In this document: positions 7,883 through 10,190 of the stretch, piece after piece
How positions within the stretch are numbered: position 1 is the first letter of the stretch
Layout of the letters: every line of letters starts with the position of its first letter
Assembly: GCF_029637605.1 (NCBI RefSeq)
Contig: NZ_CP121261.1
Coordinates: 5,890,001 to 5,954,000 of the forward strand
DNA length: 64,000 nucleotides
Direction: 5' to 3'
Source of the DNA: Achromobacter spanius
Lineage (GTDB): Bacteria > Pseudomonadota > Gammaproteobacteria > Burkholderiales > Burkholderiaceae_B
Program-made: the position numbers and the translations under genes
Notes under the pieces: generated by a model
What the model saw: only the letters and a program-made list of their open reading frames with translations
What the model was told of the DNA's origin: nothing
Database searches by the model: none

Positions 7883-7983
7883 CTGCCATTTACGTTGGCA
7901 TACATCTTTAACAAATGAATAAGCGGGTCCATATGATTCGGAATATTCTGCGCGCTACCTAAATCTGATCATGAGAAATTCGG

Positions 7984-10116
7984 ATGCATTTACGTGGCGC
8001 AGCCCTGCTTTTCGTCCTTGGTGCAGTGTGCGCTCCGGCGCACGCCGAATTTGAACAACAGCTTGGGCCTCTGGCGGGCACGGTCAAGCAGCAGCTGTTG
8101 CAGGGCTGGACGGCAGGGCTGCAGGATGGCTGGTTCACCTTGCGGAACCCGGGTACGCCCGGTAGCGAGCAAACGCTTTACGTGAATGTGGGCCCTGCGC
8201 CGGATGCCGGCCGCATTACCGACGTCAACGTGGTCGTCAGTTCACAAAACCCCAAGGCTTCCATCGGCGTGGTGCTGAACAACCGCCCGCGCAAAAGCCT
8301 GTGCCTGCTTGAGATTTCGGCGGACAAGAATACTCAGCTATTCTGTCTGGAAGGCCAGAACCGCCGCGATTTCGGCTCGGTGCCCAATGTGGCCAAGCTG
8401 GACGGCTCGGACCGCATCAAAGTGGTTGAAGTGCCCGGCGCCGCGCGCTTCATCGTGAACGGCCAGAAGATCGGCGACGTTGCCGATGTGCCCGCGCTGG
8501 GCGGCGACATCGGCATCATGGCGTATGACGTTGGCACGTTCGGCGTTGCGGACTTTGCCATCACCACCAACAAGGGCACTCCGCAAGCCGCGCAAAATCC
8601 GCCGCCTGCCGGACTGCCGCCCCGGTCCGGACTACCGCCTCGTGGTGGTGGCGCGGGGACCAGTCCGCAGAACACGCAGCCGCCCGCCGCGCCGCCGCAG
8701 TCGGCACCCGCGCAAGGCAGCAATAATTCCGGCTTGCAGGGCGCGGGTCCGTACCCGCGTTTCGGCGGCGACACCGAGCGTATCGTCGCGGTGTACATCG
8801 GCCTGATGAAGAGCATTTTCATGCACGAATTCGGCCATGCCTTGATCGGCGAATTGGAATTGCCGTCGACCGGCGCGGAAGAAGACGCCGTGGATATCTA
8901 CGCGGCGCTGCAGATCGTGGAACCCACCATGTACCCGTCGGGCAGCAAGGACGTGGACCGCATGGCGCGCGAAGCCGCAACCTATGCCGCTTTGCAGTGG
9001 TACTACAGCGGCAAGCTTTCCGAGGGTAAGGGCCAGGCCCCCTCGGCATGGCAGGACGAGCATACCGGCGACCTGAAGCGCTTTCGCAACATGCTGTGCA
9101 TCATGTACGGCGGCAACCCCGAAGTGTTTGAATCCGTCGTGCGACAAACCGGCTTTGAAGACCGCACCAAGGCGCGTTGCACCGACGAATTCAACAAGCA
9201 GAATCGCGCCTGGCGCAAGATTCTGGCGCCTCATACCCGCGTGGGAACCTGGACACCCGATGGCTTGCAGCCCGCCAACGCGCCTGGCGCGCCAGTGAAC
9301 GTGGTGTTTGAACCGTCCACGCGCAAGATCGGCAATCTGTTCGCCAAGCATCTGTCGGACGCCATCAGCGAAAACATCAAGCTCTTGGGCAAGACCTATG
9401 TGCTGCCGCGCCCCGTGAACGTGGTCTTCAAGGACTGCGGCAAGCTGAACGCCTGGTACAGCCCGCGTGAAGGCTCGATCACCATGTGCTATGAGCTGAT
9501 CGAGAACATCGCGGTGATGATCTCGGACATTGAAATGGGCACCGTGGGTGGCGAAGTGGTCGCCAAGGATGGTTCGGCGCCGCCGCCGCGCCAGCAAGCG
9601 CCCGCTGGGCAAGGACAAGGGCAAGGCCGAGGGCAGGGCGCTGCCGCGCCGACCGGCCCCTTTGATGAACTGAAAGACAGCGGCGTGCCGGCCACCACCT
9701 TGCTGTTCACGGCGCCTTATAAAGGCCCGACGCCTGTTCAGCACTACCGCGCCAAGGTCATCACGACCAAGGACCTGGTGCCGCTGATAACGAACAACAA
9801 GAATATCGTCATCGTCGATACCAGCGGGCTGCGCGATACGCTGCCCATCGCCTATCCGTTGGCCGACGCGGGGTCGGACGGCAGCGTCAAGGACCACCTG
9901 CAAGGCGCGCTGGATGACTGGCTGTTGAAGAAGGCGGGTGGCAATCGCGGCGTGCCGATTGTGCTGATGGGCGCCAGCATGAATGATCGATCGTCGTACA
10001 ACGCGGCCTTGCGTGTCGGGACGTTGGGTTGGGATGCCTACTGGTACCGGGGCGGCATGGAAGCCTGGGTGGCCAATGGGCTGCCGACGGCGCCGGTGAA
10101 GCCGGCGCAGAACTAA
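7984..10116 (+). CDS. Exported DUF4344-like HExxH metallopeptidase with rhodanese-like C-terminal domain
   Basis: 710-residue secreted or periplasmic protein with a signal peptide (cleavage likely after APAHA, residue 22). Residues about 23-195 look like a beta-sandwich (DUF1080/LamG-like pattern, low certainty), followed by a Pro/Gly-rich linker to about 255. A putative zinc metallopeptidase follows: HEFGH at 281-285 with a downstream EEDAVD motif that could supply a further ligand. About 200 residues later comes the other DUF4344 signature, DCGKLNAWY (484-492) and CYEL (502-505). In DUF4344 proteins as I know them the CYEL segment precedes HExxH, so the order here looks permuted. After a Gln/Gly-rich linker (about 530-555), residues 595-705 resemble the rhodanese group ending WYRGGMEAW, but the active-site loop (GASMNDRS, 663-670) has no cysteine. 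Substrate and role are unknown; it sits alone between ispF and convergent ahpD. Confidence 0.72.
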   Translation: MHLRGAALLFVLGAVCAPAHAEFEQQLGPLAGTVKQQLLQGWTAGLQDGWFTLRNPGTPGSEQTLYVNVGPAPDAGRITDVNVVVSSQNPKASIGVVLNNRPRKSLCLLEISADKNTQLFCLEGQNRRDFGSVPNVAKLDGSDRIKVVEVPGAARFIVNGQKIGDVADVPALGGDIGIMAYDVGTFGVADFAITTNKGTPQAAQNPPPAGLPPRSGLPPRGGGAGTSPQNTQPPAAPPQSAPAQGSNNSGLQGAGPYPRFGGDTERIVAVYIGLMKSIFMHEFGHALIGELELPSTGAEEDAVDIYAALQIVEPTMYPSGSKDVDRMAREAATYAALQWYYSGKLSEGKGQAPSAWQDEHTGDLKRFRNMLCIMYGGNPEVFESVVRQTGFEDRTKARCTDEFNKQNRAWRKILAPHTRVGTWTPDGLQPANAPGAPVNVVFEPSTRKIGNLFAKHLSDAISENIKLLGKTYVLPRPVNVVFKDCGKLNAWYSPREGSITMCYELIENIAVMISDIEMGTVGGEVVAKDGSAPPPRQQAPAGQGQGQGRGQGAAAPTGPFDELKDSGVPATTLLFTAPYKGPTPVQHYRAKVITTKDLVPLITNNKNIVIVDTSGLRDTLPIAYPLADAGSDGSVKDHLQGALDDWLLKKAGGNRGVPIVLMGASMNDRSSYNAALRVGTLGWDAYWYRGGMEAWVANGLPTAPVKPAQN

Positions 10117-10151: not shown

Positions 10152-10190
10152 AAGCCCGCCTGTTTTTACGCAGGCGGGCTTCTTCGTTTT
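10152..10190. terminator. Terminator between convergent metallopeptidase gene and ahpD
   Basis: An 11-bp GC-rich stem (AAGCCCGCCTG with CAGGCGGGCTT) with an 8-nt loop, followed by TCTTCGTTTT on the plus strand and preceded by A-rich sequence, so it may act in both directions. Confidence 0.8.

Follow-up and report, generated by a model that had tools for sequence, protein, structure and literature searches.

Domain organization of the locus

The window, the whole 64,000-nucleotide stretch of the Achromobacter spanius chromosome (6.47 Mb) analyzed here, carries on its forward strand at 7984..10116 an open reading frame (ORF) for a 710-amino-acid, three-module protein, the central module of which is a metallopeptidase-like DUF4344 domain with its two halves in permuted order, as read from the translation and the PF14247 profile. 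A putative signal peptide, recognized by eye in the translation, occupies residues 1-22 (7984..8049), with cleavage probably after AHA, and the protein is likely exported. An N-terminal beta-sandwich module of CBM66/LamG-like fold (residues 22-196; 8047..8571) is followed by the DUF4344 domain, in which the old C-half is placed first (residues 267-419; 8782..9240, delimited by PF14247 and motifs) and the old N-half second (residues 431-511; 9274..9516, delimited by profile, model and motifs). Scans with PF00581 and TIGR03865 identify a rhodanese-like C-terminal module that lacks the catalytic cysteine (residues 558-710; 9655..10116). The same three modules are confident in an AlphaFold model (beta-sandwich 22-196, metallopeptidase region approximately 255-520 and rhodanese-like module approximately 558-705), joined by linkers of low model confidence at residues 198-246 and 528-557.

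The old C-half carries an HExxH motif (H281, E282, H285) with a downstream EExxxD (E299, E300, D304), in which E300 and D304 form the ExxxD pair, then DxHx5R (D358, H360, R366) and the cysteine pair Cys372/Cys399. The old N-half, which is the beta-sheet half of the domain, carries C485..N489-A490-W491-Y492..C502-Y-E-L. The original prediction placed HEFGH (281-285) and EEDAVD (299-304) ahead of CGKLNAWY (485-492) and CYEL (502-505), and this order is confirmed in the translation.

The DUF4344 halves are swapped

PF14247 (DUF4344) matches the window protein with an E-value of 9.7e-42 and 143.7 bits, against a gathering cut-off of 29.6, in two stretches that are both above chance level. The better stretch, residues 272-414, corresponds to profile positions 90-220 and reaches an E-value of 4.3e-29 in a six-frame genome search, in which the downstream stretch corresponds to profile positions 19-74 with an E-value of 6.4e-11. 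The match is not collinear: positions 90-220 precede 19-74, and we therefore file the protein in a permuted DUF4344 subfamily and not as a canonical member. Two segments in swapped order were what the original prediction expected of this search. The single collinear hit that it named as the contrary outcome arose only with a profile whose own columns had been swapped.

Two profiles were built from 39 canonical proteins, one in natural column order and one with both column blocks swapped. The swapped profile aligns to the window protein in one collinear piece (residues 272-512, model positions 3-219 of 224) and scores 120.2 bits versus 85.5 for the natural-order profile. It scores above the natural profile in all 382 permuted entries (352 distinct), with a median gain of 40.2 bits and a median coverage of 0.96 versus 0.61, and the natural-order profile scores higher in 116 of 116 canonical entries that had not been used for training. 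Between the old C-end and the old N-end, the permuted entries have a median of 1 residue separating the profile ends (n = 382).

The original prediction took the canonical order to be the CYEL block before HExxH; of the proteins retrieved with a canonical query (the best 120 of 1746), 119 of 120 are canonical in order. The window domain is best read as a DUF4344 domain with a circular permutation. Decay is ruled out because the frame and the catalytic-type residues are intact, with both halves present, and a one-off oddity is ruled out because the swapped order is widely spread. The proposal of a circular permutation is supported, with the addition that the swap characterizes a whole large subfamily and goes beyond this one protein. 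We hold with good confidence that the halves were swapped, most likely by a natural circular permutation with its cut between the substrate-binding beta-sheet half and the HExxH helix, and that the product is predicted to be a working exported zinc peptidase.

Distribution of the two orders

Of 61 relatives, 37 are genomes of the same genus (the window's own included); 32 of these carry the same swapped pair and five have no hit. The remaining 24, which belong to the order but to other families, yielded a single hit, and it is canonical. The class yielded 14 genomes with a hit out of 369, namely three permuted (G000, G913, G902), nine canonical and two partial. The phylum was sampled with 299 genomes, and the 32 with a hit are by hit order 10 permuted (own included), 16 canonical and seven partial or unclear; G319, the one case of both orders within a genome, is counted twice. 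In a further class, Alphaproteobacteria by its named relatives, 28 of 385 genomes have a hit and 21 of these are permuted. The others comprise one canonical over the full profile (G072), one divergent and canonical by eye (G478), one fragment with stops, and four genomes of one genus that match the sheet half only. In that genus, three of the four genomes with a hit were read, and their permuted-type proteins (L059, L080, L081) keep the sheet half and have no HExxH; they are possible pseudo-peptidases.

In protein searches, all 120 relatives retrieved with the window protein (best 120 of 133) are permuted, as are 119 of 120 found with a permuted query (best 120 of 741), the remaining one being a tandem. 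The canonical query's list holds 119 canonical proteins and one without the N-half. The best 79 of 382 confirmed named loci, retrieved with a permuted query that favours a permuted outcome, contain 87 permuted ORFs and one without the second half. These loci come from Rhizobium, Ciceribacter, Devosia, Roseibium, Pseudomonas and others, and the swapped order thus extends over many Alphaproteobacteria and some Pseudomonas. Plasmids of Streptomyces, Embleya and Microbacterium (Actinomycetota) are a further place where canonical proteins are encoded. The swap is common to hundreds of bacterial relatives and probably stems from one or very few ancient rearrangements.

Origin of the permutation

A careful tree of 73 of 82 rows (eight were dropped for long or odd branches and one as an exact copy) unites 43 of the 46 permuted rows in a single clade (96/93). 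When all permuted rows are constrained to unite, the likelihood is higher by 1.90 and the approximately unbiased test gives p-AU 0.582, so that a single origin is allowed and not rejected; the tree itself is not proof of it. Canonical order is inferred to be ancestral, because loci of the neprilysin-type M13 peptidases share it (NAYY lies ahead of HExxH in five of six) and because it is seen in two phyla and the permuted order in one. The window protein and P0022 stand beside P0029 from Ochrobactrum (97/98), inside a clade of fused proteins that also holds rows from Devosia and Fuscibacter and the betaproteobacterial P0093 (Achromobacter aloeverae) and P0099 (Bordetella sp. N). This mixture makes lateral transfer between Alphaproteobacteria and the family of the window's host possible.

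The permutation probably arose from the canonical order in one or very few events, and a plausible path would be tandem duplication and fusion, after which the outer halves were lost. Evidence that tandem fusions exist in the family comes from P0121, a protein of 514 amino acids that reads C-N-C-N (permuted-permuted) and whose best single Pfam stretch, residues 158-401, covers profile positions 12-220 in canonical order across both copies. Two permuted stand-alone genes also lie adjacent on one strand in seven of the 20 genomes searched via named loci (G1063, G1064, G1065, G1068, G1070, G1072, G1077). Together, the tandem and the side-by-side copies make duplication, fusion and trimming a plausible route, without proving it.

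The same end product and mechanism could have had another history, in which the gene was split and its parts were re-fused in reverse. The short linker (a median of 1 residue in the 382 entries) is equally expected of this history, and relatives of both terminal modules occur as stand-alone proteins in Alphaproteobacteria, indicating a lineage that shuffles modules. No separately encoded pair of half-domains turned up, although no search was aimed at one, whereas the tandem fusion and the adjacent permuted copies did. We regard fission and re-fusion as unlikely.

Predicted catalytic residues

The window protein has the gluzincin pattern, HExxH plus a Glu third ligand, as a sequence pattern. 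Nearly all permuted proteins examined, that of the window among them, retain HExxH, ExxxD, H360 and R366, and the same catalytic-type residues are conserved in both half orders; DxHx5R is found in 313 of the 382 permuted entries and in 113 of the 155 canonical ones. By analogy with M13 gluzincins, zinc would be held by H281, H285 and E300, with E282 as general base, D304 would orient a ligand histidine, and H360, R366 and N489/A490 would hold the substrate backbone. The window protein carries both NAxY (N489-A490-W-Y492) and DxHx5R (D358-x-H360-x5-R366), motifs that are not exclusive to M13. The protein is likely an active periplasmic gluzincin with neprilysin-like catalytic residues, judging from its sequence, and this probable M13-like residue set offers a testable mechanism for an uncharacterized family.

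The likeness to M13 (neprilysin, ECE-1, PepO) has limits. The HExxH-ExxxD spacing is 19 residues in the window protein and 61 in M13, and the DUF4344 domain has no room for a counterpart of the large helical lid domain of M13. PF01431 (M13) gives no match up to E 10 with the window protein or nine canonical members, in searches whose HMMER filters drop most matches above approximately 0.1. Membership in M13 by profile was rejected, the match being weak and no better than that of an M48 control.

Retention of these residues also bears on the idea that the protein is no longer a peptidase and that its permuted domain now serves for binding or regulation within an exported scaffold, a role of the kind that the rhodanese-like module seems to have. 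This idea is consistent with the fused rhodanese-like module being without cysteine in 72 of 72 rows, and with the permuted-type relatives of one genus (L059, L080, L081) that have no HExxH. It is at odds with the near-universal conservation of HExxH, ExxxD, H360 and R366 in the permuted proteins, the window's among them, and we judge it improbable.

Predicted structure and residue couplings

Structures were compared by the succession of helices and strands in predicted models. The AlphaFold model of the full window protein, built with 98 sequences (mean predicted local distance difference test score, pLDDT, 86.5; predicted template modelling score, pTM, 0.64), begins the domain with the HExxH helix at 264-291, followed by five further helices and then strand, helix, three strands and helix. 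The model of canonical P0241 (60 sequences; pLDDT 87.3, pTM 0.84) reads strand, helices, three strands and helix, and then the HExxH helix at 119-142. The order is rotated between the two models, which places the cut in the loop between the post-CYEL helix and the HExxH helix. The window protein shares with canonical DUF4344 proteins both halves, HExxH, EExxxD, DxH-x5-R, NA(F/W/Y)Y and four conserved cysteines; it differs in its swapped halves and in its new termini, which separate the sheet half from the HExxH helix. The swapped chain would refold to the same zincin core.

Direct-coupling analysis of 381 permuted sequences (effective number, Neff, 162) and 153 canonical sequences (Neff 72) addresses contacts between the halves. 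The 20 strongest inter-half couplings of the permuted set include A490-R366 and the antiparallel series 505-278, 509-275, 510-274 and 510-270, as expected of a helix hairpin in the canonical chain. The top pairs of this set cluster beyond partner-shuffled controls, with 95 of 2000 shuffles reaching the observed value for the top 20, 10 for the top 30 and 36 for the top 50. That the two pieces are independent modules spanned by one profile through an accident of curation is very improbable: the conserved cysteine pairs do each lie within one half (C372/C399, C485/C502) and all strands come from one half, but both halves occur in 119 of the 120 listed canonical proteins, the inter-half couplings cluster in permuted proteins, and a zincin substrate cleft requires both parts.

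Several results weigh against a permuted, M13-like peptidase of single origin. The canonical fold of the swapped chain is inferred from element order in predicted models; the pTM of the window model is 0.64, and residues 351-360 average a pLDDT of 57. The helix-pair couplings fall close to the point at which the two extracted halves were joined, and edge effects may occur there. In the canonical set (153 sequences, Neff 72) the couplings show no clustering beyond chance, and their overlap with the permuted set is 0 in the top 20, 1 in the top 40 and 12 in the top 80, versus approximately 12 by chance. Profile comparison with hhalign gives M13 an E-value of 0.0028 and a probability of 11%, next to controls of 13% for M48 (on 16 columns around HExxH), 1.7% for M4 and 0.2% for M1. 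The motifs also recur elsewhere, NA(F/Y/W)(Y/F/W) in three of three M4 and one of 10 M48 loci, and DxHx5R in three of 10 M1, one of 10 M48 and four of six M13 loci. Foldseek with the canonical model returned no PDB hit at E <= 0.001, the best being an M61 peptidase at E 0.18. In the unconstrained tree, the main permuted clade does not include three of 46 permuted rows (L072, L073, L155), a small group with unsupported placement; at most one change is needed in only 34% of 200 bootstrap trees, and a first quick tree of all 82 rows needed three. No solved relative was found by sequence: the window protein has no hit at E <= 10, and PDB profile searches matched only at E 0.48 or worse, in no case a metallopeptidase.

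Comparison with known permutations

Natural circular permutations of enzymes are uncommon. Titles and abstract openings, with subscription papers outside the coverage, yielded no permuted zincin or HExxH peptidase, and the passages available from PMC12667903, PMC3650047, PMC3482391, PMC12419801 and PMC7824862 contain none on a permuted zincin. In the text covered, DUF4344/PF14247 is mentioned in a figure legend on X-T4SS effectors (PMC6536674) and in a table row (PMC12828279). The circularly permuted NlpC/P60 (YaeF/LRAT-like) peptidases resemble our case as a peptidase fold with a natural circular permutation, but have a papain-like cysteine fold unrelated to zincins (PMC3142127). The CA_C2195 type protein combines a metallopeptidase-related domain and a circular permutation, but by its title the permuted part is the winged helix and not the metallopeptidase-like domain (PMC4000134).

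On balance we lean towards regarding the DUF4344 case as a natural permutation of an HExxH zincin core that places the substrate-binding sheet after the catalytic helices and has become fixed in a large subfamily of proteobacteria beside unpermuted relatives, with P0121 as a living tandem that shows the duplication route between the orders, and for which we found no earlier description. Since both orders exist in nature and conserve the same catalytic-type residues, no engineering is needed to compare fold, stability and kinetics, and such natural enzyme pairs are a test of how a fold tolerates rewiring. Annotation with PF14247 only hides the permuted subfamily and reports it as two fragments.

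Flanking modules and genomic neighbourhood

The N-terminal module has the beta-sandwich fold of CBM66/LamG-like modules, from which it differs in its low identity (approximately 11%) and in having no Pfam match and no known glycan; its likely role is to anchor the enzyme to a glycan in the periplasm or at the surface. In larger fused proteins from Devosia genomes (L247-L249, open frames of 906-978 amino acids) the sandwich matches more than once, and these relatives seem to have a second copy. Precomputed Pfam annotation also gives fused relatives P0067, P0074, P0081 and P0103 PAN-type domains (PF14295, in some PF00024).

PF00581 matches residues 554-710, scanned alone, at E 2.4e-5, and TIGR03865 (PQQ-dependent catabolism-associated CXXCW protein) matches the C-terminal 92 residues at E 1.7e-11 and 44.3 bits, under the family cut-off of 128. 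Stand-alone relatives L190, L191, L193 and L202 share its GVP..GPTP and YNAALRA..WYRGG..AW blocks; their C-x4-C-W loop is replaced in the window protein by a cysteine-free loop ending in DRSSYN. This conserved DRSSYNAALR-type loop accompanies the absence of cysteine from residues 560-708 in all 72 fused rows, the catalytic rhodanese cysteine included. The module is likely a binding or scaffold part and not a sulfurtransferase.

The ORF lies between ispF and, in convergent orientation, an alkylhydroperoxidase-type gene; the names of the two genes were assigned by eye from sequence. Upstream lies a promoter-like TTAACA-18-TATGAT (7908..7937, forward strand), a consensus match of which one was found versus 0.8 expected by chance, and a terminator-like 12-pair hairpin lies 3' of the ORF (10152..10181, forward strand), with four such sites found in the region versus 4.5 expected by chance. 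A role in defence or phage biology was rejected, since neither PADLOC nor PHROG gave a match at E <= 0.1. Around the 79 named loci, a transporter ATPase, an Lrp-type regulator and an SseA-type rhodanese recur (named by eye, except the rhodanese); they look like an inherited chromosomal neighbourhood and we draw no functional link. In 18 of these 79 loci, the stand-alone permuted gene has a rhodanese-family gene nearby on the opposite strand (for example L088, 5856-7286).
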